Assembly (NCBI RefSeq): GCF_009908315.1
Contig: NZ_JAAATW010000007.1
Location: 1-55,649, forward strand
Direction of reading: 5' to 3'
DNA length: 55,649 nucleotides
DNA from: Paragemmobacter ruber
Lineage (GTDB): Bacteria > Pseudomonadota > Alphaproteobacteria > Rhodobacterales > Rhodobacteraceae
The position numbers and the translations under genes are program-made. The notes under the pieces are model-generated. The model was given only the letters and a program-made list of their open reading frames with translations, had not been told where the DNA came from and did no database searches. Each line of letters opens with the position of its first letter. The first letter of the stretch is position 1. Positions 8,020-37,593 of this stretch are shown here, one piece after another.

Positions 8020-8030
8020 CGCCGGAACCG
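8003..8030. terminator. Hairpin between convergent genes, stop codon in the loop
   Basis: An 11-bp perfect stem (CGGTTCCGGCG with its complement) encloses the six-base loop GAATAG. The loop holds the TAG stop codon of the RND pump gene. There is no T-run on the + side. It lies between the convergent pump and serine hydrolase genes and could terminate or stabilise both transcripts. Confidence 0.55.
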
Positions 8031-8040
8031 GGGTCATGGA

Positions 8041-22902: not shown

Positions 22903-23262
22903 TCATTCCGTCGGGGTTTCGGGGCCGACGATATGGACGGCGAGGAGGCAGCCGTCGGGGGTGTAGGAATTGTGTTCGGTCCCGTCGGCGTAGAAGACCA
23001 GATCGCCGGGGTTGAACACGGTGCCGTCATCTTCGATCAGCTGGCCTTCGAGGATCAGGAACTGTTCATGCCCGTTGTGGATGTGGCGGCGGGTGCGCAT
23101 CCCGGCGGGCATGCGATAGACGTGGAAGCCCTCGCCCAAGGGTTTGTCGGCATCAAGCTGCAGGATGGCATCCCCGAGCGCCACGCCATCGGGATAGACG
23201 AAGGGGGTGAAGGGCGCCTTGTGGATGTTGGCGATGCGGCGGGTCGGGGCGGTGTCGGTCAT
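22903..23262 (-). CDS. Small single-domain cupin protein
   Basis: The 119-residue protein is one cupin barrel. Motif 1 is HIHNGHEQFLILEGQL (H-x-H-x3-E) and motif 2 is PGDLVFYADGTEHNSY, so a metal site of three histidines and a glutamate is plausible. Small cupins of this kind act as isomerases, dioxygenases or lyases, or as ligand sensors. It starts 15 bases after the amidohydrolase stop and is the last gene of the Rieske/ABC/amidohydrolase operon. Its substrate is unknown. Confidence 0.8.
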   Translation of the reverse strand: MTDTAPTRRIANIHKAPFTPFVYPDGVALGDAILQLDADKPLGEGFHVYRMPAGMRTRRHIHNGHEQFLILEGQLIEDDGTVFNPGDLVFYADGTEHNSYTPDGCLLAVHIVGPETPTE

Positions 23263-23277
23263 GGGATGGCCTTTCTG

Positions 23278-24903
23278 TCAGGTGAAGGGGGCGGCGCGGT
23301 GGACGGCGCGGCCTTGGAAGAGGGTGAGCAGGACCTGCGTTTCAGCGATGGCATAGGGGTCGCAGGTGAGGATGTCGCGGTCGAGCACGATCAGATCGGC
23401 GGAAAAGCCGGGGCGCAGGGTGCCGGTGTGGTGGCTGCGCCAGCAGGCGGCGGCGGCCTGGGTGGTGTAGCCCTGGATCGCCTCGGCCCTTGTGATGCGT
23501 TCGGCCGGAAAGAAGGGCGCTGCGCGGCCCCGGTGGCGGGGCGGTTCGCGGGTGATGGCGGTGCCGATGATTTCGAACGGGTTGAGCGTGGTCACCGCCC
23601 AGTCGGAATTGATGCACCACGGGGCGCCCGCGTCGATCAGGCTGCGGAAGGGGTAGGTCCAGGCCGCGCGGGCGGGGCCGATCATGGCCATGGTGTCATC
23701 GGGAATGACGGGATCGTGGCAGGCCCAGAGCGGCTGAAGGTTCGCCATCACGCCCAGGGCGGCAAAGCGGGGGCGGTCATCGGGGTGGACCAGCTGGCAA
23801 TGGGCGATCTGGTGCAGGGCGGGCCATGGGCCGTTGGCGGCGCGGGCGGCGGCGAAACCGTCGAGCGCGGCGCGGGTGGCGCGGTCGCCGATGCAATGGA
23901 CATGGATCTGGAAGCGCGCGGCATCGAGCGCGGTGAAGAGCGCGGCGATCTGGTCGGGCGCGAACATCAGGGGGGCATTGCCCCCGGGGGCATCGGCGTA
24001 ATCGTCGATAAGGGCGGCGGTGCGGTTCTCCAGCCCGCCGTCGAGGAAGAACTTGGCGGAGTGGAGGTGGAAGCCGTCGCCGCGATGGGCATCGCGCAGC
24101 GCGGTTAGGCGGGACAGCGCGCTGTCCACCGTGTCGGCGGCGGTGACCGACATGGCGCCCGCCACGCGCAGGGTCAGGGCATCGGTGGCGGCGGCATGGG
24201 CGTAGATGCCCACATGGTGGGACTGGATGAAGGGGTCCAGCACGCCGGTGATGCCGTGGCGGTTGGCATGGGCCTGACCGGCGCGCAGGCCCGCGCGGAA
24301 GGTGGCCTCGGTCGTCTTTGGCAGGCGGTCGAGCGCCCAGTAGATCGCGTCTTCGTGCAGCATCCCGGTGGCGCGGCCTGCGGCATCGCGGACGAAATGG
24401 CCATTGGGCGGATCGGGGGTGTCGTCGGTCAGCCCGATCATGCGGATCGCGCGGGCGTTGAGGCAGGCATTGTGGAAGTTGCCGTCATAGATCAGGCAGG
24501 GGCGATCCGGGGTGACCGGATCAAGCACCGCATGGGTGAGGTTCTCATCGCCGAAAAAGCCGCATTGCCAGCCCGCACCCCAGAGCATGGGGCCATCATG
24601 GCGGGCGGCATGGGCGGCCATGGCGGCGGAAATCTCGGCCGTGGTGGTGCAGTCGTAGAGGGGCGCGGTTTCCACCAGATCCGTGCCGCCGTTCAAGAGG
24701 TGGATATGGGCATCCTGAAAGCCCGGCAGGACGAGGTGGCCTTGGGCGTCGATCACCTTGGCGCCGGATCCGGCAAGGGCGGCCATGGCGGGGTGGTCCC
24801 CCAGCGCGAGGATGCGCGCGTCTTCGATCACCAGCGCCTGCGCCACGGGCTGGGCGGGGTTCATCGTCTGGATGCGGGCATGGGTGAGCAGGGTGCGGGT
24901 CAT
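23278..24903 (-). CDS. Amidohydrolase family 3 (YtcJ-like) metal-dependent hydrolase
   Basis: The 541-residue enzyme has the composite beta-sandwich/TIM-barrel layout of amidohydrolase_3 proteins. The N-terminal HxH is in PGFQDAHIHLLNGG. Further metal or catalytic residues are in FHLHSAKFFLDGGLENRTA, VHCIGDRA and the aspartate of INSDWAV. These enzymes cleave amide, formamide or related bonds, mostly on uncharacterised substrates. The ATG overlaps the stop of the preceding DMSP-lyase-like gene by four bases, so the two are translationally coupled. Its place in the operon suggests it processes the imported compound or a downstream amide. Confidence 0.87.
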   Translation of the reverse strand: MTRTLLTHARIQTMNPAQPVAQALVIEDARILALGDHPAMAALAGSGAKVIDAQGHLVLPGFQDAHIHLLNGGTDLVETAPLYDCTTTAEISAAMAAHAARHDGPMLWGAGWQCGFFGDENLTHAVLDPVTPDRPCLIYDGNFHNACLNARAIRMIGLTDDTPDPPNGHFVRDAAGRATGMLHEDAIYWALDRLPKTTEATFRAGLRAGQAHANRHGITGVLDPFIQSHHVGIYAHAAATDALTLRVAGAMSVTAADTVDSALSRLTALRDAHRGDGFHLHSAKFFLDGGLENRTAALIDDYADAPGGNAPLMFAPDQIAALFTALDAARFQIHVHCIGDRATRAALDGFAAARAANGPWPALHQIAHCQLVHPDDRPRFAALGVMANLQPLWACHDPVIPDDTMAMIGPARAAWTYPFRSLIDAGAPWCINSDWAVTTLNPFEIIGTAITREPPRHRGRAAPFFPAERITRAEAIQGYTTQAAAACWRSHHTGTLRPGFSADLIVLDRDILTCDPYAIAETQVLLTLFQGRAVHRAAPFT

Positions 24904-25769
24904 GGCGTGGCCGTCAGGCGCAGGGACTCGAGCGCGGGCCAATCGGGCGCGGGCAGGATGCGGGCGGGGGCGGCGCTGTCGCGCGTCCGGAAGACGAAGG
25001 CGAGGAAGGGGGTGGGGCCGACCTTGATGAGATGGGGGCGGTGCGCGTCGTGCCAGACGGAGCGATGGGCGGGTTTCGTGATCAGCGGGCGCGCGGGGCC
25101 GAAGCGCCAGCCATGCGGGCCGGTGAGGGGAAGGTAAAGCTCGGGCGCGGGATGGCTGTGGTCGCGGCAGAGGATGTGCGGCGCCATCAGGACGAGGCCG
25201 AATTCGGCGTCTCTGCGGCCAAGGCCCGTGTCGGGCGTGATCAGGGGGCAGAAGGCGTGGCCGCCGGCGCAGGCGGGGCCGGTGTGATCGGGCGGGGCGG
25301 GGTCATGGCTGGCCCATGGCAGATGCGGGGCCGCCGCGCCGATGGCTTTGGCAAGGGCGGGATGCGTGGGGGCGAGCGCGGCGAGGGCCGCGGGAAGGTG
25401 GGTGGCGACCACGGGCTGCGGCTGGGGTGCGGGCGGGGTGGCGGTTGCATCGGATTGCGCGATGAGGCGGCGCAGTTCGGCGGCGCCGGGGCAGGTGAGG
25501 GGGGCGAGGTAGGCCCGCACCTCATCCATCAGGCGCTGCCCTGCGGTGGTGGCGGAGGTTGGAGCCAGCGAGTGGGGCGGCAGGCCGTGGGCGGCCAGCA
25601 CCTCGTCCACCGGGCGGGTGTCGGAGGCGGAGGCGATGCGGAAGGCCTCGAGCGTGGCGGCGGACAGCTTGCCCTGCTGATAGAGCGCCATGGCCGCGCC
25701 ATAGCGGATGCGCCCGGCGCCGGGGGTGCCGGGGGGCAGGTGAAGCAGGGTGTCGGGCGTGTCAGTCAT
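24900..25769 (-). CDS. DMSP-lyase-family-like cupin protein
   Basis: The 289-residue protein ends in a cupin domain with a motif layout like DddQ/DddL dimethylsulfoniopropionate lyases: CRDHSHPAPELYLPLTG gives the H-x-H-x4-E-x-Y metal and catalytic set, followed by HDAHRPHLIKVG with the fourth histidine and FVFRTRD. The N-terminal 120 residues are helical and proline/alanine rich, as in longer DddL-like proteins. Known members cleave DMSP to acrylate and dimethyl sulfide. Close paralogues may act on other onium compounds, so the substrate is not proven. The ATG overlaps the upstream permease stop by eight bases; a start eight codons further upstream is possible. Confidence 0.6.
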   Translation of the reverse strand: MTDTPDTLLHLPPGTPGAGRIRYGAAMALYQQGKLSAATLEAFRIASASDTRPVDEVLAAHGLPPHSLAPTSATTAGQRLMDEVRAYLAPLTCPGAAELRRLIAQSDATATPPAPQPQPVVATHLPAALAALAPTHPALAKAIGAAAPHLPWASHDPAPPDHTGPACAGGHAFCPLITPDTGLGRRDAEFGLVLMAPHILCRDHSHPAPELYLPLTGPHGWRFGPARPLITKPAHRSVWHDAHRPHLIKVGPTPFLAFVFRTRDSAAPARILPAPDWPALESLRLTATP

Positions 25770-26601
25770 GGGAGCGGTAGGCCATGCGTTCATCGCGGAT
25801 GCGCCGCGCCTCGGCCCGGTTCAAGAGGATGCCCGCGATCACCACGCCGGTGCCCACGACAAGCACGGTCAGGGTGGCCAGCGCGTTGATATCGGGGGTG
25901 ACGCCGAGTTTCACCTTGGACCAGATCAGCAACGGCAAGGTGGTGTTGCCGGGGCCGGTGGTGAAGGAGGTGATCACCACATCGTCGAGCGAGATGGTGA
26001 AGGCCAAGAGCCAGCCCGACAGGATGGCAGGGAAGATGGTGGGAAGGGTGATGTCCCAGAGCACCTGCCACGGCCGCGAGCCGAGATCCATCGCCGCCTC
26101 TTCGATGGCGCGATCGGCCTGCATCATGCGGGCCTGCACGATGGTCGTGACAAAGACCATGGAGAAGGTGATATGCGCCAGCGTAATGGTGGTGAAGCCG
26201 CGCTGGCCGGGCCAGCCGATCCAATCGGCCATCAGGATGAAGAGCATGAGCGCGGAGATGCCGGTGATCACCTCGGGCATCACAAGGGGCGCGGTGACGA
26301 GGCCGGAGAAGAGGAGCCGCCCCTTGAAACGGGTGTAGCGCGCGAGCGCGATGCCCGCCATGGTGCCGAGGATGGTGGCCACGCTGGCCGAGATGACGGC
26401 GATCTGCAGCGACAGCATCAGCGCGGCGCCAACCTGACGGTTGGACAGGAGCGAGACATACCATTTCGTCGAGAACCCGCCCCAGACCGTGGCGAGGCGG
26501 CTTTCGTTGAAGGAGTAGACGATCATCGACAGGATCGGCACGTAGAAGAAGGCAAAGCCGAAGACGAGGGTGGTGAAGAGGAACCAAGGGCGGCGCTTCA
26601 T
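25762..26601 (-). CDS. ABC transporter permease (PotI/PotC type)
   Basis: The 279-residue permease has six hydrophobic helices and the coupling loop EEAAMDLGSRPWQVLWDITLPTIFPAI. It belongs to the spermidine/putrescine-type importers, which in this lineage also carry opines, betaines and other cationic compounds. Its ATG overlaps the stop of the PotH-like gene by four bases. It pairs with that permease around the ATPase encoded at 27541-28638. Confidence 0.9.
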   Translation of the reverse strand: MKRRPWFLFTTLVFGFAFFYVPILSMIVYSFNESRLATVWGGFSTKWYVSLLSNRQVGAALMLSLQIAVISASVATILGTMAGIALARYTRFKGRLLFSGLVTAPLVMPEVITGISALMLFILMADWIGWPGQRGFTTITLAHITFSMVFVTTIVQARMMQADRAIEEAAMDLGSRPWQVLWDITLPTIFPAILSGWLLAFTISLDDVVITSFTTGPGNTTLPLLIWSKVKLGVTPDINALATLTVLVVGTGVVIAGILLNRAEARRIRDERMAYRSHD

Positions 26602-27536
26602 GGCTGTGTCTGCCCCCCCGGTTTCGCCTCGGCCCCGTCGGCGCGGGCCTGAGCGCGGCTGTAGAGCATGGTGGGCACCACCATCAGCAGAAGGAGCGCC
26701 ACGGCGACGGAAGAGGCCATGGGCCAATCGCGGGCGGAGAAGAACTCGTCCGAGATCACGCGGCCGATCATCGGGCTGGCGGCATCGCCCACCAGCGTGG
26801 GGATGACCAGTTCGCCCGCCGCCGGGATGAAGACCAGAAGCGCGCCCGCCACGATGCCGGGGATGGATTGCGGCAGGGTCACATCGAGGAACACCCGGAA
26901 GGGGCGGGAGCCGAGATCCATCGCCGCCTCGTCCAGCGCGGGGTCGAGCCGTTCGAGGCTGGCGTAAAGCGGCAGGATCATGAAGGGGAGGTAGGTGTAG
27001 ACCATCACCAGCACGACCGCGAAGTTCGAATGCATGAGCGGCAGCGAGGTGACGGCCCAGCCTTCCGGGGTGAGCCAGTTCCATGCATCGGTGAGCATCT
27101 GGTTGAACCAGCTGTTGCGGCCCATCATCCCCATCCAAGCGTAGACGCGCAGCAGGAAGGACGTCCAGAACGGCAGGATGACGAGCATCAGCAGGATGTT
27201 GCGCCACCCCTTGGAGACCCGCGTCAGCCCAAGCGCCATGGGATAGCCGAGCAGGAGGCACAAAAGCGTGGCGACCCCGGCGTTCAGAAGCGATGTGGTG
27301 AAGGCGCGGATGTAGAGATCATCTGTGAAGAGCCGCGCGTAACCATCGAGATTCACGAGCGGATTTTCACCGCCAAAGCCGAAGGGCGGGGCGGTGGGGG
27401 TGCGGGTGGCCACGCTCATGGCGACGACGATCAGGAAGGGCAGCAGGAAGAGGATCAGGAGCCAGAGATAGGGCAACCCGATCAGGATGCCTGCAAAGCC
27501 CCTGCCGTTCAGCCAGTGCGTCAGGCGGGCGCGCAT
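26598..27536 (-). CDS. ABC transporter permease (PotH/PotB type)
   Basis: The 312-residue protein has about six transmembrane helices starting with GLPYLWLLILFLLPFLIVVAM, and the EAA loop DEAAMDLGSRPFRVFLDVTLPQSIPGI. The ATG ending at 27536 is chosen because the ATPase stop lies five bases away; a longer in-frame extension is proline/serine rich and unlikely. The pair of Pot-type permeases plus a Tat-like binding protein is the complete inner-membrane importer. Confidence 0.9.
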   Translation of the reverse strand: MRARLTHWLNGRGFAGILIGLPYLWLLILFLLPFLIVVAMSVATRTPTAPPFGFGGENPLVNLDGYARLFTDDLYIRAFTTSLLNAGVATLLCLLLGYPMALGLTRVSKGWRNILLMLVILPFWTSFLLRVYAWMGMMGRNSWFNQMLTDAWNWLTPEGWAVTSLPLMHSNFAVVLVMVYTYLPFMILPLYASLERLDPALDEAAMDLGSRPFRVFLDVTLPQSIPGIVAGALLVFIPAAGELVIPTLVGDAASPMIGRVISDEFFSARDWPMASSVAVALLLLMVVPTMLYSRAQARADGAEAKPGGQTQP

Positions 27537-27540
27537 CCGG

Positions 27541-28638
27541 TCAATCCCGCAGGAGGATGGCGGAGGCCGGCTCGAAGCTGAGCCAGACGCGATCATACCA
27601 GTCGGGGCGGGCCTCGCCATCGCGGCGGGCGTTGACGGCATGCACGGCCATCAAGCTGCCGCCGGGCAGGGTGATGCGATAGAGGCTGTCCTTGCCGAAA
27701 TAGGCCAGATCCTTCACCTCGCCCGAGATCACGTTGGGGCCGTCGGGGCGGTCGCGGTGGAGTGCCACCTTTTCGGGGCGCAGGCCGAGGGTGAGGCTTT
27801 CGCCGGGGGCAAGGCCGGGCAGGGCGATGGTCTCGACCTCGGTGCCGAAGGCGGGCACGGTGAGGCGCGCGCGGGGGCCGGAGACGGCGGTGACGGTGGC
27901 CGGAAACTGGGTGATGGAGCCCAGGAAATTGGCGACGAAGCGGGTGGCGGGGTGTTCGTAGACCTCGGCCGGGGGGCCGATCTGCTGCACCTGGCCCCGA
28001 TCCATCACGGCGATGCGGTCGGCCAGTGTCATCGCCTCTTCCTGATCATGGGTGACGACGATGAAGGTGACGCCGGTGCGTTCCTGGATCGACATCAGTT
28101 CGAACTGCGTCTGTTCGCGCAGCTTCTTGTCCAGCGCGGCGAGCGGTTCGTCGAGCAGGAGGAGTTTCGGCTGCCGGGCCAGGGCGCGGGCCAGCGCCAC
28201 GCGCTGGCGCTGGCCGCCCGAGATCTGATGCGGCTTGCGCTGGGCGAAGGGGGCAAGCTGGACCAGATCGAGCATGGCGCGGACGCGGTCGGCCCGTTCG
28301 GCCGCCGACATGGCGTCGTGTTTCAGGCCGTAGCCCACGTTCTTTTCCACCGTCATATGGGGAAAGAGCGCATAGCTTTGGAACATCATATGGACGGGCC
28401 GTTCCCAAGGCGGGACGCCGGTCATGTCCTGCCCATCGAGGAAGATGCGGCCTGCGGAGGGGTCTTCGAACCCTGCCAGCATGCGCAGGAGCGTGGTCTT
28501 GCCGCAGCCGGAGCCGCCGAGCAGGGCGAAGATTTCGCCCCGGTCGATGGTGAGAGAGACGTCACGCACGGCCTGAAAGGTGCCGAAATTCTTGGAAACG
28601 CCTTCGATCCGCAGGAACGGCGCCGGAGATGCGGGCAT
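27541..28638 (-). CDS. ABC transporter ATP-binding protein (PotA/PotG type)
   Basis: The 365-residue ATPase has Walker A GGSGCGKTT, the Q-loop FQSYALFPHMTV, signature ISGGQRQRVALARAL, Walker B LLLDEPLAALD, the switch histidine VVTHDQEEAM and a C-terminal TOBE domain (about 280-365). This is the PotA/CUT1-like form. It begins three bases after the stop of the binding protein gene and powers the two Pot-type permeases downstream. Confidence 0.93.
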   Translation of the reverse strand: MPASPAPFLRIEGVSKNFGTFQAVRDVSLTIDRGEIFALLGGSGCGKTTLLRMLAGFEDPSAGRIFLDGQDMTGVPPWERPVHMMFQSYALFPHMTVEKNVGYGLKHDAMSAAERADRVRAMLDLVQLAPFAQRKPHQISGGQRQRVALARALARQPKLLLLDEPLAALDKKLREQTQFELMSIQERTGVTFIVVTHDQEEAMTLADRIAVMDRGQVQQIGPPAEVYEHPATRFVANFLGSITQFPATVTAVSGPRARLTVPAFGTEVETIALPGLAPGESLTLGLRPEKVALHRDRPDGPNVISGEVKDLAYFGKDSLYRITLPGGSLMAVHAVNARRDGEARPDWYDRVWLSFEPASAILLRD

Positions 28639-28640
28639 GA

Positions 28641-29744
28641 TCAGCCGCCGGATTTGATGGTGGTCCAGATCCGCGTGATCTCGCGGTCCTGTTCTTCGGT
28701 CTGGGGGGTGGGGGTGTACATCCGCGCCAGCGTTTCGGCATCGGGATAGACGGCGGGATCGGCGGCGATGGCGGGATCGACGAAGGGCGTCGCCGCCTTG
28801 TTGGCATTGGCATAGCCCGTGAAGTTGGTGCAGGCGGCGATCACCTCGGGGCGCAGGAGGTAATCGACGAAGGCATAGGCATTGTCCAGGTTCGGCGCGT
28901 CGGAGGGCAGGCACAGCAGATCGAACCAGGCCGGCGCCCCGGTCTTTGGGACGTGGTAGGAGAGGTTCATCTCGATCCCCGCCTCGGCGGCGCGGGCCTT
29001 GGCCACGCCGTAATCGCCCGACCAGTTGTTTATGGCGCAAAGCTCGCCATTCGGGATGGCGGGGAGGTAGTTGGAATTGTCGAAGGTGGCGATGTAGTCG
29101 CGGATCGGGGCGAAGGCCTCGGCCATCTTGGCGTATTCGGCGGGGCCTGCGGTGTTGGGGTCTATTCCCAGATAGCTGAGGACCATGAAGCCGATGTCGG
29201 TGGGGCTGTCGAGGATGGAGATCCCGCAATCGGCGAGCGCGGCGGCGTTTTCGGGTTTGAACAGCGTGTCGAGCGAGTCGAGATCGGCATCGGGCAGGCG
29301 TTCGCGCACCATGTCGAGATTGTAGGTGATGCCGACAGAGCCCCACATGTAAGGCACACTGTAGGCGTTGCCGGGGTCGAAACCTTCAACGATTTTCAGT
29401 ATTTGCGGATCGAGATTGGACCAGCCCGACAAGCGCGCGCGGTCAAGTTTCTGATAGACGCCTGCGGCCACGAATTGCGGCAGGCTGAGGCCTGCCATCA
29501 CCACCACGTCATAGCCGGTGGAGCCGGTCAGCATCTTGGCCTGCATTTCCTCGGCGCTGGCGTAGAGGTCGTAGACCACGCCGATGCCGGTTTCGGCCTC
29601 GAAATCCGCGAGCGTGGTTTCGCCGATGTAATCGGACCAGTTGTAGACATTCACCGTGCCGGCCTGCGCCCAGGAGGGGCGGACATAGGGGATCGCCAAG
29701 GTGCTGCCGAGGGTGAGAAGGGCGTTCCGGCGGGTCAGTTTCAT
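28641..29744 (-). CDS. ABC transporter substrate-binding protein (PotD/PotF type)
   Basis: The 367-residue protein starts with a twin-arginine-like signal (LTRRNALLTLGSTLAIPY, cleavage after SWAQA). The mature fold begins VNVYNWSDYIGETTLADFEAETGI, the hallmark of polyamine-type binding proteins; the tryptophan and aspartate typical of amine recognition are retained (NWSDY; DWSG-like NNWSGDYG). It supplies the Pot-type transporter encoded downstream. It lies 46 bases after the Rieske oxygenase gene. A cationic ligand such as a betaine, polyamine or opine is likely; which one is not evident. Confidence 0.92.
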   Translation of the reverse strand: MKLTRRNALLTLGSTLAIPYVRPSWAQAGTVNVYNWSDYIGETTLADFEAETGIGVVYDLYASAEEMQAKMLTGSTGYDVVVMAGLSLPQFVAAGVYQKLDRARLSGWSNLDPQILKIVEGFDPGNAYSVPYMWGSVGITYNLDMVRERLPDADLDSLDTLFKPENAAALADCGISILDSPTDIGFMVLSYLGIDPNTAGPAEYAKMAEAFAPIRDYIATFDNSNYLPAIPNGELCAINNWSGDYGVAKARAAEAGIEMNLSYHVPKTGAPAWFDLLCLPSDAPNLDNAYAFVDYLLRPEVIAACTNFTGYANANKAATPFVDPAIAADPAVYPDAETLARMYTPTPQTEEQDREITRIWTTIKSGG

Positions 29745-29790
29745 GGCGGTCTCCCTGTGGTGTCTGGCCGGTTGATCCGGTCTGTGGGAT

Positions 29791-31014
29791 TCAGGCTATG
29801 CCTGCTTGTCCTTGGGCGACAAGCATTTCCTGATTGAGGGCGGCGATGCGGTCTTCGGGCGGGGCTGTATCGAGGGTGAGGACAGGCAGAAGGGCGCGCA
29901 GGTCGTCGTGATGGCGGCGCAGGCCCCATTCGAGATCGGACAGGTGGAAGCCGTCAAAGGCCGAGGAGCGCATGGATTCGTTTGACCAGATGGAAAGCTG
30001 CTGGTCTTCGGCCGAGGTGTCGCGGTCGATCCGCATGGCGAGGTAGCGGGCGAGCCGTTCGCGGCGCGTCTCTTCCGGGTTGCGGTAGAGGCGTCCGGTG
30101 AGGCACGTGCGGCCGGGGGCGAGCGGGATTTCGTGATAGAATTGAATGCTTTCCGGGGTGAAGGAGAAGACGATTTGGGGAAAGACGCCGTAGTACGTCC
30201 ATGCCCCGGCAAGGTGCGGTGGCAGGTGGTCGCGCGCCTGTGACAGGCGGTTGTACTGGCGCACCGACCAGAGCCGACCCGGGGTGTCCCCGTAGCGGCC
30301 GACCGAGATGTTCAGGCCGTTTGGAAGGAAGATGTCGCGGTAGTCGCGGCCGTAGAGATCCTGCAGGCCAGGATGGGCGAGGGGGACGTGATAGCCTTCG
30401 TTGTCAACGTCGCGGACGGATTTCCAGTTCACCGGCAGGTCAGTGGACCAGTAGGGGGTGGCGACAGGCAGGATGTCGGCCGTGCGATAGGCGGCGAAGT
30501 CGGCATCATAGGGGGCCAGAAGATCGGCGATATCGGGCTGCGGGCCGGGCTGGAAGCGGATGAAGAGAAAGCCGTGGAAGGATTGCAGTTCAATGGGTTT
30601 CAGGCCGAACTTCGTGCGGTCCATATCGCCGAAGCTGCCCGGTTGGGCAGGCCCGCGCAGCGTGCCGTCGAGGTTGTAGACCCAGCCATGGAAGGGGCAG
30701 ATGATGGCGCCCCGGCATTGGCCGCGCGCGCCATCGACGACGCGCGCGCCCCGGTGGCGGCACAGGTTGTGGAAGGCGCGCACGATGCCATCGGCGCCGC
30801 GCATGAGGACGGCGCGTTCGCCCAGCATGTCGAAGGTGATCCAGTCGCCAGGGGCGGGCAGGTCACATTCATGCCCCGCGACCTGCCAATGGGTCAGGAA
30901 GACATGGGTCTTTTCCAGATCGAACAGGGCGGGGGAGTGGTACGTCCAACCCGGCAGGCCACGGCGATCCCAGTCGTTCGGGATCGGGAGTGAGGACAGC
31001 GGATGGGTGGTCAT
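29791..31014 (-). CDS. Rieske non-heme iron oxygenase, alpha subunit
   Basis: The 407-residue protein has an N-terminal Rieske [2Fe-2S] domain (CRHRGARVVDG... then CPFHG, giving C-x-H and C-x2-H) and a C-terminal catalytic domain with the mononuclear iron motif DVDNEGYHVPLAHPG (two histidines and the bridging aspartate). It looks most like the quaternary-ammonium oxygenases of the GbcA/CntA kind, which demethylate betaines or cleave carnitine. No reductase is adjacent, so electrons must come from elsewhere. It is the first gene of the operon, directly behind the palindromic operator and divergent from the BetI-like regulator. The ATG ending at 31014 has AAGG upstream. Confidence 0.88.
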   Translation of the reverse strand: MTTHPLSSLPIPNDWDRRGLPGWTYHSPALFDLEKTHVFLTHWQVAGHECDLPAPGDWITFDMLGERAVLMRGADGIVRAFHNLCRHRGARVVDGARGQCRGAIICPFHGWVYNLDGTLRGPAQPGSFGDMDRTKFGLKPIELQSFHGFLFIRFQPGPQPDIADLLAPYDADFAAYRTADILPVATPYWSTDLPVNWKSVRDVDNEGYHVPLAHPGLQDLYGRDYRDIFLPNGLNISVGRYGDTPGRLWSVRQYNRLSQARDHLPPHLAGAWTYYGVFPQIVFSFTPESIQFYHEIPLAPGRTCLTGRLYRNPEETRRERLARYLAMRIDRDTSAEDQQLSIWSNESMRSSAFDGFHLSDLEWGLRRHHDDLRALLPVLTLDTAPPEDRIAALNQEMLVAQGQAGIA

Positions 31015-31062
31015 GCGACATGCCTTCGTGCTGGGGCGGTGGGGCGGATGGTCGCAAGATTC

Positions 31063-31080
31063 TGATTGAACTGTCAATCA
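31063..31080. promoter_or_regulatory. Perfect palindromic operator between Rieske and tetR genes
   Basis: TGATTGA-ACTG-TCAATCA is a perfect 7-bp inverted repeat with a four-base spacer. It resembles the BetI operator type (TTGATTGAAC...TCAAT). On the minus strand it contains TTGACA, a possible -35 element of the Rieske operon, so repressor binding would block transcription. Confidence 0.65.
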
Positions 31081-31166
31081 AAATGATGAAGCTGGGGGAA
31101 AGGCCTTGTTTTCCAGATGGGATCGGCTATCGACCGGGCCGACGACGCCCCCTGCAGGGAGTTCCG

Positions 31167-31820
31167 ATGGACGATATCACCGATCCGGCAAACCTGCCGC
31201 GCCGCAAGCTGAGCCGCGAGGAGCGGCGTTTGCAACTGATCGAGGCGACGATTTCGGTGATTGCCGAGAACGGGTTTGCGCGCACCACGCTGGGCGAGGT
31301 GGCGCGGCGGGCGGGGCTGTCGCATGGGTTGGCGAATTTCCATTTCGAGTCGAAGGAAAAGCTGCTGGCGGCGACACTGGATCATCTGTCGGACGAGTAC
31401 CGCGCCAATTGGCAGGCGGCGCTGGCCGTGGCGGGGCCGCATCCGGCAGACCGGATTGCCGCGCTGATTGCAGCGGATTTCGCCCCGGTGATCTGCACGC
31501 CGGACCGGCTGGCGGCGTGGTGCGCGTTTTGGGGCGAGGCGCAGAGCCGTCCGCTTTATCAGGCGCATTGCGGATCGAATGACGCGGAGTATCAGCGGCT
31601 TCTGGATGGGCTGTGTCGGGAGTTGCTGGCCCTTGGGGGGTATCCCGGCGATGCGGTGCGGATGGCGCGGGTGCTGCGGGTGACGACCGAGGGTGTTTGG
31701 CTCGATCTGATGACGATGCAGGCGCCCTATGACCGGGACGAGGCGCTGGCCACCGTCTGGGCGGTGGCGGCGGCGTTCTTTCCGCGCCATTTTGGCCCCG
31801 AGGGGCGGCTGACTGTCTGA
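31167..31820 (+). CDS. TetR-family regulator, BetI-like
   Basis: The 217-residue protein has the TetR helix-turn-helix at about 20-65 (RRLQLIEATISVIAENGFARTTLGEVARRAG, with GLANFHFESKEKLL) and a C-terminal ligand domain with the BetI-like segment CAFWGEAQSRPLY. BetI itself responds to choline; this paralogue probably senses a related onium compound. GGGAG lies seven bases before the ATG at 31167. It is divergent from the Rieske/ABC operon across the perfect palindrome and is followed by a flavin monooxygenase gene in the same direction. Confidence 0.88.
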   Translation: MDDITDPANLPRRKLSREERRLQLIEATISVIAENGFARTTLGEVARRAGLSHGLANFHFESKEKLLAATLDHLSDEYRANWQAALAVAGPHPADRIAALIAADFAPVICTPDRLAAWCAFWGEAQSRPLYQAHCGSNDAEYQRLLDGLCRELLALGGYPGDAVRMARVLRVTTEGVWLDLMTMQAPYDRDEALATVWAVAAAFFPRHFGPEGRLTV

Positions 31821-31944: not shown

Positions 31945-33219
31945 ATGGCGGTGGAGACGGTCGAGACGCTGGTGATCGGGGGCGGGCAGGCGGGGCTTGC
32001 CATGAGCGCGCATCTGGGGCGGCTGGGCCTGCCGCATCTGGTGCTGGAACGCCACCGCATCGCCGAGCGCTGGCGCACGGAGCGGTGGGATTCGCTGGTG
32101 GCCAATGGCCCGGCCTGGCATGACCGTTTCCCCGATCTGACCTTTGATGACATCGACGGCGATGCCTTTGCGCCGAAGGATCGGATCGTGCGGTATTTCG
32201 AGACCTATGCCGCGCAGAACGGATCACCCATCCGCTGCGGGGTGGACGTGCGGCGGCTGGAGCGGATGCCGGACGGGCAGTTCCGGGCCGAAACATCGGC
32301 GGGCGGGGTGATCGTGGCGCGCAACGTGGTGTCGGCCACGGGGCCGTTCCAGAAGCCGGTATTCCCCTGGATGATCCCCGCGGATGCGGGGGTGATGCAG
32401 ATCCATTCCAGCGCCTATCGCAACCCGGGCCAATTGCCCGAGGGGGCGGTTCTGGTGGTGGGGGCGGGGTCATCGGGCGCGCAGATCGCGGATGAGCTGC
32501 TGCGGGCGGGGCGGAAGGTGTTTTTGTCCGTCGGGCCGCATGACCGGCCGCCGCGCGCCTATCGGGGGCGGGATTTCGTCTGGTGGCTGGGGGCCCTGGG
32601 CAAGTGGGATGCCCGCGCCATCACGCCGGGGATGGAGCATGTGACGATTGCCGTTAGCGGGGCCGAGGGCGGGCAGACGGTGGATTTCCGGCGCATGGCG
32701 GCGCGGGGGATGGTGCTGGTGGGGCGGACGGAGGGGTTCGCGGCAGGGCGTCTGCGCTTTGCCCCCGATCTGGCGGCGAACATCGCGCGGGGGGATGCGA
32801 ATTACCTTTCTGTGCTGGATGAGGCCGATGCCTTTGTGGCGCGCGAAGGGCTGACGTTGCCCGAAGAGCCGGAGGCGCGTGTGATCGGGCCGGATCCCGC
32901 CTGCATGACCGATCCTGTCCTGTCGCTGGATCTGGCGGCAGAGGGCGTGGCGGCGGTGATCTGGGCCACGGGCTATGTGCTGGATTACGGCTGGATGAAG
33001 ATCGACGTCTTCGACGCGCAAGGGCGCCCGCGCCATCAGCGGGGGGTGTCGGCGGTGCCGGGGCTGTATTTCCTGGGCCTGCCGTGGCTGTCGCGCCGCG
33101 CGTCAGCCTTCATCTGGGGGGTTTGGACGGACGCGCAGCATCTGGCCGGGCAGATCGCCCGCCGTCGGGAGGATGCGCTGGCCGAAGCTCAGTTCGGGGA
33201 GAGCAGGCCGGGCTTGTAG
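31945..33219 (+). CDS. Flavin-containing monooxygenase-like NAD(P)/FAD protein
   Basis: The 424-residue protein has the FAD-binding fingerprint VIGGGQAGLAMSAHL near the N-terminus, a second dinucleotide motif VVGAGSSGAQIADEL (about residue 172-186) and the late ATGYVLDYGW segment (family ATG motif). The type is YUCCA/CzcO-like class B monooxygenase, which hydroxylates or S/N-oxidises small molecules using NADPH and O2. Its start at the ATG 31945 follows GGCAGGGGGCGG. It is transcribed in the same direction as the BetI-like gene 124 bases upstream and may act in the same pathway; that is inference. The last 31 bases overlap a convergent small gene. Confidence 0.85.
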   Translation: MAVETVETLVIGGGQAGLAMSAHLGRLGLPHLVLERHRIAERWRTERWDSLVANGPAWHDRFPDLTFDDIDGDAFAPKDRIVRYFETYAAQNGSPIRCGVDVRRLERMPDGQFRAETSAGGVIVARNVVSATGPFQKPVFPWMIPADAGVMQIHSSAYRNPGQLPEGAVLVVGAGSSGAQIADELLRAGRKVFLSVGPHDRPPRAYRGRDFVWWLGALGKWDARAITPGMEHVTIAVSGAEGGQTVDFRRMAARGMVLVGRTEGFAAGRLRFAPDLAANIARGDANYLSVLDEADAFVAREGLTLPEEPEARVIGPDPACMTDPVLSLDLAAEGVAAVIWATGYVLDYGWMKIDVFDAQGRPRHQRGVSAVPGLYFLGLPWLSRRASAFIWGVWTDAQHLAGQIARRREDALAEAQFGESRPGL

Positions 33220-33580: not shown

Positions 33581-34840
33581 TCAGGCGCCGCCCGGTCCGT
33601 AGGCGCGCACCGCCGCGGCAAGGGCGGGGCTGTCTTTGGCGGCAAGGTCGAGGGGGATGCCAGACATGGCCGCGGCCCACGCATCCTGCAGGGCGCGGAC
33701 CCCGGCGGCGGGGCCGTCGGGATGGGCCATGATGCCGCCGCCTGCGGCGAAGATGAGGTCGGGCGTGTGCAGCGCGGCCCATGTGCCATGGACCTGCAGC
33801 GCCGTCTGGCCCGACGAGAAGACCGGCATCGCGGTGGCGGGGCGGCCGGGCGAAAGCGGTGTGGCCAGCGCGCGGGCCGAGGCGATCACGCTGCCGTCGG
33901 CTTCGCAGAACTTGTTGGCGAGCCCGTTGACATGCAGATGATCGGCCCCCGCCAGCCGCCAGAGCGCCGACCATGCGGCATAGTCGAAGCCAAGACCGGG
34001 ATGGCGGGACAGGTAACCCCAGCCATTGCGATGGGTGTGGATGGGAAGCTGGGCGTGGCGGCGCAGGGCCAGCATGCCCGTCAGGCCGATGGAATTGGCG
34101 CTGGCCATGATGCAGGTCCCGCCCAGGGACAGGATCAGATCGTGGCGGGCGCGCATCTCATCGACCTCGCCCGTCAGGTTGAAGGCATACATCACCTTTT
34201 TTCCGGTGCGGTCGGCATGGGCGTTGATGACGGCCATCACGGCGCGGGCGCGGGCGTCGAAGGGGCAGACGGCGCCGTCGGCCTGCAATTCATCATCCTT
34301 TATGAAGTCGATGCCCGCTTGGCAGAGGGTGGCCACCATGGCGGCGGTCTCATCGGGTGAGAGGCCGATGGAGGGTTTGATGATGGTGCCGATCAGGGGG
34401 CGGCCCTGCACGCCGGCCAGCGTGCGGGTGCCTGTCGTGCCGAAGGCGGGGCCGGGGCAGGCGGCGACGAGTTCGGGCGGAAAGCGCAGCGCGGTGAGGC
34501 GGAGGGCGGCGACGCAGTTCAGTTCGAACAGGTTGCCCGCGACGGTGGCGAGGATGTTGGGCAGGCTGGGGCCGGTATTGGCCAGCGGCCAGGACAGGGT
34601 GAGGCGGGCGCGGCGGTGGGGGGCGTGGGGCGTGGCGGCGCCGGGCAGGGCGGGGCCGGGGATGGGGCCAAGATCGGTGATCGCCTCGATGCGGGCGGCG
34701 GAGCGCGCCTTGAGTTCCGCGGTCTCGCCCGGGACGGGGCGGAAGGTGCCGGATGACTGTTCCCCCGCGATGGTGGCTGCCGCCTTTTCCAGCGCGACGG
34801 GGGTTTCGAGGATGTAGTCGGCCTCAAGGCGCGGGGACAT
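33581..34840 (-). CDS. RuBisCO-like protein of the D-apionate pathway
   Basis: This 419-residue protein is a form IV RuBisCO-like protein. By eye it keeps many RuBisCO active-site positions: E27, N103, K155 (GTIIKPS), the carbamylation/metal triad K181-D183-E184 (FIKDDE), H270-R271, H303, K310 (loop 6 spacing of seven from the histidine), S343 and the GGG phosphate loop. The second lysine of KPK is replaced by serine. In characterised loci the partner of OiaK is either OiaT, a 3-oxoisoapionate-4-phosphate transcarboxylase/hydrolase, or OiaX, a decarboxylase. No tetrose-phosphate isomerase is nearby, so OiaT, giving 3-phosphoglycerate and glycolate, fits better. Confidence 0.85.
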   Translation of the reverse strand: MSPRLEADYILETPVALEKAAATIAGEQSSGTFRPVPGETAELKARSAARIEAITDLGPIPGPALPGAATPHAPHRRARLTLSWPLANTGPSLPNILATVAGNLFELNCVAALRLTALRFPPELVAACPGPAFGTTGTRTLAGVQGRPLIGTIIKPSIGLSPDETAAMVATLCQAGIDFIKDDELQADGAVCPFDARARAVMAVINAHADRTGKKVMYAFNLTGEVDEMRARHDLILSLGGTCIMASANSIGLTGMLALRRHAQLPIHTHRNGWGYLSRHPGLGFDYAAWSALWRLAGADHLHVNGLANKFCEADGSVIASARALATPLSPGRPATAMPVFSSGQTALQVHGTWAALHTPDLIFAAGGGIMAHPDGPAAGVRALQDAWAAAMSGIPLDLAAKDSPALAAAVRAYGPGGA

Positions 34841-34866
34841 GGGGTTCCTTTCCGGGGGCGGGGCGG

Positions 34867-36501
34867 TCAGCGCAGCCAGACGAGGGCGCTGTCTGGGGCG
34901 GGGCTGGGCTGGCCGCGTTTTGGAGGCGGGGCTGGGTCTGGCGTGAGGTTGGCGGCCAGACCGCCGTGATCGGTGGTGATCAGGATATGGCCGGCCTGCG
35001 CGGTGATCGTCGCCTCGGCCCCGGCCAGCGCATGGGCCACGCGGAGGACATCGCTCAGCGGCCCGGTGGGGCCGAGGGGGCCGTCGGTCATGGCGAGTGC
35101 AAGGCTGGCGACACCGGCGCAGGCCGCTTCGGCGAGGATGGCCACGGCATAGGCGGCGGCAAAGGCGGTGGGCTGGCGCGGATCGGCCATGGCCATGGGC
35201 AGGCGCAGGCCGTCCGGGTTGGGGGCCGTGGCATCGCCATAGGGGTTGGAGCGCATGCCTATGGAGAAGAGGCCCAGGTGCAGGGGCCTGCCCGCCGCGA
35301 TGGTGCGGGCGGTGGCGAAGATGTCGGGCAGCGCCTCGATCGTCTGGCGGACAGAGAGATCATCGGCGGCATGGACGATGGCCGTGTTGCCGAAGGTGAT
35401 GAAATCCACCTCTGCGGGATCGGGGCGGTGGCGGTTCAATTCGGTGAAGTTGGTCAGGCTGCCCCCGCCGATCAGGGCGGCGGGAAAGGCCCTGCGGAGA
35501 TGGGGGGGAATGTCGGCGGGTTGCAGGCCGGTCGGCCATGGACCATCGGGCTGATGGCTTTTCAGGAAGGGGCGGGGCAGGGCGGTGACGCGGGCGGGTT
35601 GGATGCCCGCGCGCTGGATGCGGGCGATCTGGCGGTGAAGGTCGGGCAGGTCGTCGCAGACGATCTCGATCGCCGGGGGGGCGTGCCGGGCCATGGCGGT
35701 GAGGGTGACGTCGGGTGTTTCCGGGGTGAGGCGGAAAAGGAGCGGCAGGGCGGCGGGGTGCGCGGGGCTGGCGGGGGTGCAGGGCCCGTGTTCATGGGCC
35801 AGCAGGACCTGCGGCAGGCGGGCGCGTGTGGTTGTGGCGGCGGACGGGGCGGCGGCGCTGGCCGTGCCGGGGGTGAGCTTCAGGGTGACGTGCTGGCGGA
35901 TGACCTCGCCTTCCGCCACGGCGAAGGGGAAGGGCAGCGCAAGGGGGCGGCAGTAGGTCTTGAACGAAGCGTCGGACCAGTTGCGCTGATCCTCCATCTC
36001 GAACACGTCGCCCGAGAGGGTGATGTGCAGGGCGAGGCCGTCGATGCTGTGGGCAAGGCCTGCAAGGGTGCGGGCAGGCTGGGCGGGGCTGATGCGCGCG
36101 GGAAATGTGGTGGCGGTCGTGCTGCCATCGGGGTGGTGCAGGGTGAGGGGTTGGCCTGCCACACCCCGGATCGGGTGGAGCAGGGTGAAGCCCGCGCGAT
36201 TGATCTGGGCAGCGCGGCGGAAGGTGAAGGTGACCTCGGCCGCGAGCGTTGCGGGGGTGGTGAGGCGGGCCTCGAAGGTGCCGTGGAAGGCGTCGCCCGG
36301 ATCGCGGAACTGGCGGCGATAGGTGGTGGGGGTGGTTTCCTCGGCCAGCGTTTGGGTGAGGAAGGTGCCCCAGTCGCGGTTGCGGACGGGATAGGTGAGG
36401 GCGCGCAGCACCTCGACCCCCTGACAGGTGACGGCGCCGAGACCGCCATCGCGCAGGGCAGCGGTGAGGGGGCCGAGGGTGAGGATGTGACCGTCAGGCA
36501 T
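34867..36501 (-). CDS. apnL: Putative D-apionate lactonase
   Basis: The 544-residue protein matches in length and context the D-apionolactonase ApnL, which opens D-apionolactone to D-apionate at the start of apiose breakdown. The layout is an N-terminal beta-rich region (residues 1-180: GVEVLRALTYPVRNRDWGTF) and a C-terminal half with barrel-like segments. I recognise the family from context and the opening segment more than from a known catalytic motif. It lies 26 bases upstream of the RuBisCO-like gene in the same orientation, which also has AAGGA before its start, so co-translation from one transcript is likely. Confidence 0.7.
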   Translation of the reverse strand: MPDGHILTLGPLTAALRDGGLGAVTCQGVEVLRALTYPVRNRDWGTFLTQTLAEETTPTTYRRQFRDPGDAFHGTFEARLTTPATLAAEVTFTFRRAAQINRAGFTLLHPIRGVAGQPLTLHHPDGSTTATTFPARISPAQPARTLAGLAHSIDGLALHITLSGDVFEMEDQRNWSDASFKTYCRPLALPFPFAVAEGEVIRQHVTLKLTPGTASAAAPSAATTTRARLPQVLLAHEHGPCTPASPAHPAALPLLFRLTPETPDVTLTAMARHAPPAIEIVCDDLPDLHRQIARIQRAGIQPARVTALPRPFLKSHQPDGPWPTGLQPADIPPHLRRAFPAALIGGGSLTNFTELNRHRPDPAEVDFITFGNTAIVHAADDLSVRQTIEALPDIFATARTIAAGRPLHLGLFSIGMRSNPYGDATAPNPDGLRLPMAMADPRQPTAFAAAYAVAILAEAACAGVASLALAMTDGPLGPTGPLSDVLRVAHALAGAEATITAQAGHILITTDHGGLAANLTPDPAPPPKRGQPSPAPDSALVWLR

Positions 36502-36555
36502 GGCGGGTGCCGGGGGGTGTGGCCGCGATGGCCGGGCGGGGATGGGCGCGGGTAA

Positions 36556-36591
36556 GGGGCGCGGTCGGGGGCGCAGTCGGGGGCGCGGTCG
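36556..36591 (+). repeat. Three tandem copies of a 12-base unit
   Basis: The unit GGGGCGCGGTCG occurs three times in a row, the middle copy with one change (A for G). It lies in the gap between the lactonase and oxidoisomerase genes. It may be simple slippage. Confidence 0.7.
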
Positions 36592-36677
36592 GCCTGCCGG
36601 ACGCGTGGGGATGGCTGACGGCGCGGAAAGAGCCGTGGTTGATCATCGGTCGTCCCCCTTCCCCTGCCGCCCCCGGA

Positions 36678-37508
36678 TCAGGTGATGCGCTTGATGGAGG
36701 CGGTGATTTCGTCCCAGTCGAAGACGCGCTTCCAGTCATCCTTCATCAGCACGGGGATGCCATACTGGATGGCCTTGTTGCAGGCATCCGAAAAGACGCC
36801 GACGCGTTCCTCGAAGATGACCGCGCCGAGGATGTTCATATGGCCCAGAAGGAAGTCGCGGGCGCAGTCGTGGCTGACGCCCGAGCGGCGGACACATTCA
36901 TCCATCGCCTCGCGCATCACTGTCATCAGCGAGGCGGCGACGGTTTCGGACAGGCCCGGTTCCAGCATGGCCATCTGGGCGACCGTCACCTCGTGGCTGC
37001 GCATGACGGGGGCGTAGATGGCGCGGGCGATCTGTTCGCCCGTGGCGTAATGGTCGCGTGGCCCCTGCATCAGGGCGCAGACGATGGCCTGTTTGGCGGC
37101 GATGCCGCCGAAATGGTCGGCCTTTGCCTCGGGTGTCACCTCATCGTTGTAGATGGGCGGGTGGCAGGGATGGGTGATGAAATAGGTGATGTCGGCGCGT
37201 TCGGGCAGGTGGCCCGCATAGGGGGCGGCGGCGTCGAGGATCACGATGATGGTGCCGGGGGCGACCTTGGGGACGACCTCGGCGGCGACGCGGCCGATAT
37301 GGGTATCGGGCACGGCAAGGATGACGGCGGTGGCGCCGTCCAGCGCCTGTTCGGCGGGGAGGCAATCCAGACCTGTCGCCTCTTTCAGGCGGGTGCGGCC
37401 GGCTTCGCTCACCTCGACCGGGGCGGTGATGAAGTCGGTGCGCAGAAGATTGGTGGCGCAGCGGACGCCCATCTTTCCGCCAGCACCGAAGAGGGCGATC
37501 TTGGTCAT
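36678..37508 (-). CDS. apnO: Putative D-apionate oxidoisomerase
   Basis: The 276-residue enzyme has an NAD(P) Rossmann fingerprint at the N-terminus (IALFGAGGKMGVRCATNLL) and a helical C-terminal half containing HPCHPPIYNDE and the GHMNILGAVIFE segment typical of the phosphogluconate-dehydrogenase-like DUF found in ApnO. ApnO converts D-apionate to 3-oxoisoapionate. The kinase gene diverges from it and the lactonase follows in the same direction, so together they form one regulon. The start codon ATG at 37508 faces a short divergent promoter region. Confidence 0.75.
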   Translation of the reverse strand: MTKIALFGAGGKMGVRCATNLLRTDFITAPVEVSEAGRTRLKEATGLDCLPAEQALDGATAVILAVPDTHIGRVAAEVVPKVAPGTIIVILDAAAPYAGHLPERADITYFITHPCHPPIYNDEVTPEAKADHFGGIAAKQAIVCALMQGPRDHYATGEQIARAIYAPVMRSHEVTVAQMAMLEPGLSETVAASLMTVMREAMDECVRRSGVSHDCARDFLLGHMNILGAVIFEERVGVFSDACNKAIQYGIPVLMKDDWKRVFDWDEITASIKRIT

Positions 37509-37533
37509 GGGGCCGTCCTTTCCTGGGAAGTGG

Positions 37534-37562
37534 GTGGTAACTGGTATGACATGTTGATAAGA
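37534..37562. promoter_or_regulatory. Divergent control region of the apionate genes
   Basis: Between apnO and the kinase gene the segment AACTGGTATGACATGTTGAT (37539-37558) is AT-richer than its surroundings and contains the palindromic core ACATGT with flanking TGGTA and TTGAT arms. It is a candidate binding site for the GntR regulator encoded at 38972-39700. The symmetry is imperfect. Confidence 0.35.
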
Positions 37563-37593
37563 TGGGCGTCAAGCAGTGACGGGAGCGGCAGGG

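Follow-up and report, generated by a model that had tools for sequence, protein, structure and literature searches.

An operon of Paragemmobacter ruber that joins a Rieske oxygenase to a PotFGHI-type importer and its possible role in the breakdown of a two-ended cation

Introduction

Rieske oxygenases of group V include the carnitine monooxygenase CntA, the stachydrine demethylase Stc2 and the glycine betaine enzyme GbcA. The published clades of this group differ at the residue corresponding to position 203 of CntA, which is a tyrosine or a phenylalanine in clade Va and an asparagine in clade Vb. Stepwise demethylation systems include the dimethylglycine-type enzymes, which have flavin adenine dinucleotide (FAD) and GcvT parts. 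The dimethylsulfoniopropionate (DMSP) lyase DddQ has a catalytic set made up of Tyr120, His123, His125, Glu129, Tyr131 and His163. The family of DMSP-lyase-like (DLL) cupins reportedly includes members of unknown function. We analysed an operon in which a Rieske oxygenase, a Pot-type importer and a DLL cupin occur together, found in a stretch of 55,649 nucleotides of Paragemmobacter ruber (contig NZ_JAAATW010000007.1, positions 1-55,649, assembly GCF_009908315.1); this whole stretch is called the window, and the 3,955,066 bases of the assembly the window genome.

Two further described systems are close to parts of this locus. PMC8666671 lists the ligand residues of PotF, the binding protein of the Escherichia coli putrescine importer PotFGHI, as S38, D39 and D247 at the proximal end, W37, W244 and F276 in an aromatic box, and S85, S87, A182, E185, D278 and L348 at the distal end. 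In Ruegeria pomeroyi, the box of the repressor BetI1 (ATTGACG-CGTCAAT) spans a -35 box, according to PMC12442346.

Our results showed that the operon of the window is a shortened derivative of a longer conserved operon, with the Rieske gene as its first gene. We propose, with a probability of about 45%, that it serves the repressor-controlled import and the start of the oxidative breakdown of a small cation with a positive charge at each of its two ends, one of which is probably N-methylated.

Results

Conservation of the operon and its shortened form in the window

Eight genes are tightly packed on the minus strand, in the order Rieske oxygenase (hereafter Rieske-1), PotF-, PotG-, PotH- and PotI-type subunits of an ATP-binding cassette (ABC) importer, DLL cupin, amidohydrolase and ChrR-type cupin, with spacings of 46, 2, 4, -4, -8, -4 and 15 bases, and they lie opposite a BetI-like repressor gene. 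All are intact and stand where the initial annotation had placed them, and its remark that no Rieske reductase is encoded in the operon agrees with the genes present. The start of Rieske-1 was taken to be the ATG at 31014 rather than the TTG of the listed open reading frame. Among the NCBIfam models shown, a single cut-off was reached by the proteins of the operon and the repressor, that of the polyamine-transporter ATPase subfamily by the PotG-type protein; none reached the equivalog cut-offs of PotF, PotG, PotH, PotI, GbcA or BetI.

Genes in the relatives were called with a simple purpose-made caller, which yielded no calls for two of 26 loci (L042 and L044). A scan of named genomes gave 558 confirmed loci, of which the best 80 (63-90% identity, mostly Rhodobacteraceae) were retained and 77 were usable after removal of L113, L130 and L140. 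The order from the repressor to PotI was spanned by 52 of these 77 loci, so that the gene order was indeed conserved. Locus L071, which has the gene order of the window, falls outside the 52 through a strand miscall, and in the 62-locus comparison of DLL catalytic residues given below, L076 was counted as lacking the DLL gene because only a 166-residue piece of it was called. Several of the 80 loci appear to come from genomes of the ten close relatives L046-L055 (L083/L048, L084/L046, L101/L051, L106/L052, L130/L053 and L144/L055). With the window genome counted, a relative of Rieske-1 at an E value of 1e-60 or better was found in 27 of 198 genomes of the same family, and at 1e-100 in 6 of 385 genomes of the class.

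Comparison with the close relatives L046-L055 (64-73% identical) showed that a second Rieske gene (Rieske-2, 23-32% identical) directly precedes Rieske-1 in all ten. In eight of the ten, a GcvT-like protein and two CrtO/CrtI-like FAD oxidoreductases are encoded ahead of Rieske-2, together with a class-III aminotransferase in six, and these upstream genes are divergent from the TetR gene; L051 has neither the GcvT, FAD and aminotransferase genes nor the TetR gene at the upstream position. The same order is given in the public record of plasmid NZ_CP124537.1 of Fuscovulum ytuae, which is not independent of L049; there the series closes with a "dimethylsulfonioproprionate lyase family protein", followed by amidohydrolase and methyltransferase genes. 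Among the 52 complete loci, Rieske-2 is present in 41, GcvT in 27, the DLL cupin in 42, the amidohydrolase in 24, the ChrR-type cupin in 14 and the methyltransferase in 17.

On a Rieske-1 tree of 53 rows, window included, a minimum of four changes was needed for Rieske-2 and of nine for GcvT, and we read these changes as losses because the deepest rows carry the full operon. The nearest kin of the window (L071, L072 and L073) are without Rieske-2, while their sister L074 (Rhodobacter kunshanensis) retains it; L071 and L073 keep the window order through to the ChrR-type cupin, and the contig of L072 stops after PotI. With the F. ytuae proteins as queries, none of the five upstream genes had a close counterpart anywhere in the window genome. 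The best matches were 36% identical for Rieske-2 (a GbcA-like protein), 40% for GcvT (within a trimethylamine N-oxide (TMAO) demethylase) and 31% for the aminotransferase, and the two FAD oxidoreductases gave matches no better than E values of 4.7e-6 and 7.6e-9. The window operon is a shortened one, since the upstream genes, conserved in relatives, are absent from the whole of its genome.

Two associations within the 52 complete loci were set aside. The ChrR-type cupin is absent from all 27 operons that have GcvT and present in 14 of the 25 that lack it. Both genes occur together, however, in two loci that are not among the 52 (L131 and L090), and a tree-aware test left only one well-supported independent pair, so that a functional exchange between the cupin and the GcvT module was not established. 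The methyltransferase is found in 17 of 27 operons with GcvT and in none of the 25 without, and the tree-aware test did not establish this association either.

No study of this gene set was found in the open literature, as judged from titles and the openings of abstracts and with subscription papers mostly outside the scope of the search, and the set is apparently uncharacterised.

The importer and its binding pocket

The PotF-type periplasmic binding protein (28641-29744, minus strand) has PotF chains as its best matches in the PDB (E about 1e-98) and scores 348.8 bits on NF007962 (cut-off 636). The PotG-type ATPase (27541-28638, minus strand) has ABC_tran and TOBE_2 domains, with 376.8 bits on TIGR01187, over the cut-off of 355.6, and 435 on the PotG model, under that of 613. 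Both permeases match PF00528, and their best NCBIfam models, each under its cut-off, are PotH for the one encoded at 26598-27536 (291 bits, cut-off 489) and PotI for the one at 25762-26601 (322.2 bits, cut-off 476), both on the minus strand.

An alignment read by hand placed S37, D38 and D244 of the window protein at the proximal end, W36, W241 and W273 in the box, and A84, L86, S180, D183, D275 and P345 at the distal end. Six of the 12 PotF ligand residues are thus identical, each of the four acid positions holds an acidic residue, and a third acid position is changed conservatively. Residues W36, D38, Y39, D183, W241, D244, W273, D275 and Y311 are conserved in 70-72 of 72 rows, and the conserved pocket residues map to the proximal acids, the aromatic box and the distal acids of PotF. 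The distal end is altered throughout the clade: all 72 rows have Asp where PotF has E185 and Ser where it has A182, and 62 of them have a hydrophobic residue in place of S87. Because the proximal end is kept, the four acid positions remain acidic and the distal end is changed clade-wide, the pocket, as far as its residues can tell, fits a ligand that carries a primary ammonium group at one end and another kind of cation, perhaps a methylated one, at the opposite end. Two observations in PMC8666671 weigh against such a specialised ligand: the acids, E185 included, are conserved to at least 96% among PotF homologues, and a third of these homologues have Trp at F276, so that an ordinary polyamine is itself a possible ligand.

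Rieske-1, Rieske-2 and the supply of electrons

Rieske-1 (407 aa; 29791-31014, minus strand) matches PF00355 and PF00848, and its structure model has a predicted local distance difference test (pLDDT) value of 88.5. The bridging Glu206, corresponding to E205 of CntA, is a glutamate in 77 of 77 Rieske-1 proteins. At CntA position 203, Rieske-1 has Asp204, an aspartate in all 37 clade rows, some of which are identical to one another; the Rieske-2-type rows have Tyr203 with ECxHC in 21 of 21, as in CntA. The label "quaternary-amine-type" first given to the window enzyme had to be abandoned, as an aspartate at this position fits neither clade Va nor clade Vb; the typical quaternary-amine Rieske enzyme is Rieske-2, which is missing from the window genome. 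Comparison of folds was also tried as a guide to the substrate type of Rieske-1 and did not discriminate.

Two proteins with an FAD_binding_6 domain are encoded in the window genome. One adjoins the GbcA-like gene and has GbcB as its best model (363 bits, cut-off 500), and the other adjoins the gene of a DmmA-family protein. A reductase from elsewhere in the genome presumably feeds Rieske-1, and the GbcB-like protein is a candidate.

The repressor and its putative operator

The divergent TetR-family repressor (217 aa; 31167-31820, plus strand) has a BetI-type C-terminal domain (PF13977, 50 bits; PF00440, 47.5 bits). An inverted repeat, TGATTGA-ACTG-TCAATCA, lies at 31063-31080 and includes TTGACA on the operon strand. 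It had been described as a perfect palindrome; the repeat is there and its 7-base arms are perfect, but a 4-base spacer splits them. The position was established by eye in the window and nine relatives, and the pattern TGAYTG-N6-CARTCA was then counted in 59 repressor gaps of relatives (20.4 kb with margins), where it was present in 54. Because several of these loci are from the same genomes as the first ten, the count is partly non-independent of the set that defined the pattern. Outside the gaps, three plus-strand matches were found in the other 1.11 Mb of those loci, two of them directly before Rieske-1 and inside overlong repressor calls (L107 and L117) and the third between Rieske-1 and PotF (L083). 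This looser pattern occurs at a single place in the window genome, and its reversed control at none, so that the repeat is no chance feature.

The common form of the repeat on the operon strand is TGATTGACAG-NN-CAGTCA, TTGACA included, and the repeat sits between the repressor and whichever gene comes first, be it the aminotransferase, an FAD oxidoreductase, Rieske-2 or Rieske-1. A scan with the promoter consensus found no full sigma-70 promoter, and the terminator count was about that of shuffled sequence (5 found, 4.6 expected). The natural reading is that a local, amine-responsive repressor would act at the repeat.

The DLL cupin, the amidohydrolase and the ChrR-type cupin

The DLL cupin (289 aa; 24900-25769, minus strand) matches the Pfam family DMSP_lyase (PF16867, 60 bits, cut-off 27) and has the fold and the metal ligands of DddQ, so that its assignment to the DMSP-lyase fold stands. 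The protein is, however, eroded in the lineage of the window. It has five of the six catalytic residues of DddQ, with C201 in the place of Tyr120, and the L073 protein has lost the equivalent of Tyr131. The full six are present in 47 of 62 loci, window included, and three to five in another five; no full-length DLL protein was aligned in the remaining ten. The ratio of nonsynonymous to synonymous substitution rates (dN/dS) was 0.38-0.39 for the DLL gene, compared with 0.07-0.25 for the Rieske, Pot, amidohydrolase, ChrR-type cupin and repressor genes. Over 95 conserved columns, the DLL protein deviated from the consensus at 15 in the window, 18 in L071 and 10 in L073, and at 5 in L074, which kept Rieske-2. 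The deviating conserved columns of the window numbered one for Rieske-1, one for PotF, four for the amidohydrolase and two for the ChrR-type cupin, for clade medians of 5, 5, 7 and 2, respectively.

The DLL protein is intact in 41 of 50 loci with Rieske-2 and in 6 of 12 without (Fisher p 0.054, on related rows), which is suggestive at most of a coupling between its integrity and Rieske-2. A second, apparently independent erosion was seen in L078 (8105-8956), in which two metal ligands (E210T and H246L) and Tyr201 are lost although Rieske-2 is present.

The Amidohydro_3 family metal-dependent hydrolase (541 aa; 23278-24903, minus strand; PF07969, 294.5 bits) has H66, H68, K284, H334, H364 and D434 conserved in 29 of 29 rows, and the solved chains nearest to it, 3icj and 3igh, belong to uncharacterised hydrolases. 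The small ChrR-type (Cupin_7) cupin (119 aa; 22903-23262, minus strand; PF12973, 38.9 bits, cut-off 27) has H60, H62, H65, E66 and H97 conserved in 20 of 20 rows. Both counts include the window.

Cousin clusters and methyl-handling partners

More distant cousins of Rieske-1 (45-57% identity) are paired variously with other Pot-type importers, omega-aminotransferases, GcvT-like proteins and flavin mononucleotide (FMN) oxidoreductases, the latter in L034 and L058, where we take them to be trimethylamine dehydrogenase (TMADH)-like. In L051, where Rieske-1 is 70% identical, a separate nearby cluster contains an MttB-family protein. The company kept by these cousin clusters supports methylated amines as the substrate class. 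In the window genome, a TMAO demethylase is encoded in addition to the GbcAB-like and DmmA-family proteins. It scores 1214.6 bits on the corresponding NCBIfam model, above the cut-off of 1100, and could therefore allow methylated-amine products to be used; the same model is the best match of the GcvT-domain protein of the relatives, at 259.5 bits and under that cut-off.

Some other arrangements were observed. The Rieske and DLL genes are adjacent, with no PotFGHI genes between them, in L099, L100, L101 and L119, and in the first three of these they stand beside a different Pot-type binding protein, so that the enzymes may switch importer. In L030, a gene at 7509-8783, beside a Rieske-1 cousin and PotFGHI genes, encodes an FAD protein of the amine-oxidase family; its four nearest matches among solved structures are all lysine-specific demethylase 1B.

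Neighbouring genes in the window

A flavin-dependent oxidoreductase is encoded directly downstream of the repressor gene, at 31945-33219 (best model MSMEG_0569 family, 359 bits, cut-off 498). This flavin monooxygenase was rejected as a member of the operon because seven called genes part it from the repressor in the close relatives L071 and L072. Further on, at 33581-38961, lies a sugar-acid cluster of the apiose/isoapionate type, with a RuBisCO-like protein (best match OiaX, 426 bits, cut-off 700), a protein matching the D-apionate lactonase ApnL (350 bits, cut-off 750), a kinase matching OiaK (458 bits, cut-off 700) and, between the cluster genes, a PGDH_C dehydrogenase; the OiaX, ApnL and OiaK matches are all under their equivalog cut-offs. 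A protein of 606 residues encoded at 43211-45031 looks, by eye, rich in alanine and coiled-coil-like, with a signal-like start; it had no Pfam match at 1e-5.

Discussion

The locus had been predicted to import and break down an onium compound, either sulfonium or ammonium. The conserved unit is indeed fit for cationic import and oxidative breakdown, but the acidic residues at the two ends of the pocket make a sulfonium substrate unlikely. Under our proposal, the PotFGHI-type importer would take up a dication, probably a diamine-like one, and Rieske-1, with O2 and with electrons from a reductase encoded elsewhere, would attack a carbon next to nitrogen, most likely that of an N-methyl group, with release of formaldehyde. 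In the relatives with the whole operon, methyl groups would be removed stepwise. Rieske-2, with its Tyr203, would act on the quaternary stage; another methyl group would be transferred to tetrahydrofolate by the FAD oxidoreductases together with the GcvT-like protein; and the last amine would be taken off by the class-III aminotransferase. Without the five upstream genes, the window genome might follow a shorter route or use a less methylated substrate.

There is a fair chance that such a pathway is new. More tentatively, we suggest that Rieske-1 could found a third branch among the Rieske enzymes that oxidise amines, a branch recognisable by the invariant Asp and acting as a demethylase of N-methylated diamines or polyamines, and that together with Rieske-2, the split FAD/GcvT set and the aminotransferase it could form an undescribed methylated-polyamine pathway of the Rhodobacteraceae in which the DLL cupin would cleave a nitrogen analogue of DMSP; we regard this extended version as doubtful.

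The features of the importer would also be compatible with ordinary polyamines. The importer and the repressor might serve putrescine, spermidine or agmatine, with Rieske-1 oxidising an unmethylated amine or an unrelated compound, as is suggested by the half of the PotF ligand residues kept, with a third acid position changed conservatively, by the best models of the four subunits, which are PotF, PotG, PotH and PotI, and by the protein nearest lysine-specific demethylase 1B in the cousin cluster L030. We consider this rather unlikely in view of the clade-fixed distal changes (Asp for E185, a position so strongly conserved in the homologues surveyed in PMC8666671, and Ser for A182) and of the regular pairing of the importer with a Rieske enzyme and, in relatives, with methyl-handling enzymes. 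It is less probable still that the window carries the decaying remains of a pathway that was lost together with Rieske-2 and the GcvT module, the rest now being eroded. The deviations of the DLL cupin (15 columns compared with 5 in L074), its elevated dN/dS and the absence of close copies of the five upstream genes are what such decay would leave, but Rieske-1, PotF, the amidohydrolase and the ChrR-type cupin deviate at or under the clade medians and have dN/dS values within 0.07-0.25, and the DLL gene alone looks relaxed. Moreover, Rieske-2 changed state at least four times; if these changes are losses, reduced operons arose repeatedly and persist, and therefore probably still work.

The two remaining explanations have far lower probabilities. 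Rhodobacterales reportedly take part in the recently described pathway for homarine (N-methylpicolinate), and the operon might be a branch of it; a PotF-like pocket for a dication would nevertheless be ill-suited to a monocationic aromatic acid, which makes this very unlikely. It seems hardly credible, in spite of the DddQ fold and five of the six catalytic residues, that the operon imports a sulfonium compound such as DMSP for cleavage by the DLL cupin. The equivalents of Tyr120 and Tyr131 are lost in the window and in L073, respectively, L112, L125 and L137 share the importer and the Rieske gene with no DLL gene called, and acids at both ends of the binding site would suit a dication and not the zwitterionic DMSP. 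The oxidative breakdown of a two-ended, probably N-methylated cation is thus the reading that we retain.

The operon recurs in many genera of the Rhodobacteraceae and in a few other alphaproteobacteria, and its substrate is therefore probably not rare. The binding protein, the repressor and the Rieske enzyme constitute a defined unit for the identification of this substrate, the full, intermediate and reduced operons offer a natural series for ordering the steps of the pathway, and DLL cupins are given a function that can be tested. If the substrate is a methylated polyamine, the operon would add a route to the cycling of methylated nitrogen compounds.

Comparison with known systems showed likenesses and differences for each part of the operon. 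The repressor shares the TetR_C_6 domain of BetI, and its putative operator spans TTGACA, at which no full promoter was found, as the BetI1 box spans a -35 box; however, it scores 107.5 against a cut-off of 201.3 (TIGR03384) and 100 against 118, the symmetry of its operator is TGAYTG-N6-CARTCA, and choline genes are absent from the window operon. Among the stepwise demethylation systems (TMAO demethylase, the DMSP demethylase DmdA and the dimethylglycine-type enzymes), the likeness lies in the GcvT-type folate domain that accompanies FAD oxidoreductases in the relatives with a full operon; the difference is that the GcvT and the CrtO/CrtI-like FAD proteins are separate there and joined to two Rieske enzymes, and this set is absent from the window genome. 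The DLL cupin differs from DddQ, DddW and DddK by its length of 289 aa, with an extra N-terminal part beyond the stretch matched to DddQ, by its faster evolution, by the missing Tyr120 equivalent in the window and by its place in an amine-type operon. Rieske-1 shares with group V (CntA in clade Va; GbcA and Stc2 in clade Vb) the Rieske Cys/His ligands, the bridging Glu, the 2-His-1-Asp iron site and the fold, but it has an Asp at the substrate-sensing position 203 and EGYHV instead of ECYHC, is without a partner reductase gene, and scores 124.3 bits on the GbcA model NF058607 (cut-off 670). The importer has the same F-G-H-I subunit order as the putrescine importer of E. coli, from which the window binding protein differs by the changes of E185 to Asp, A182 to Ser, S85 to Ala, S87 to Leu, L348 to Pro and F276 to Trp.

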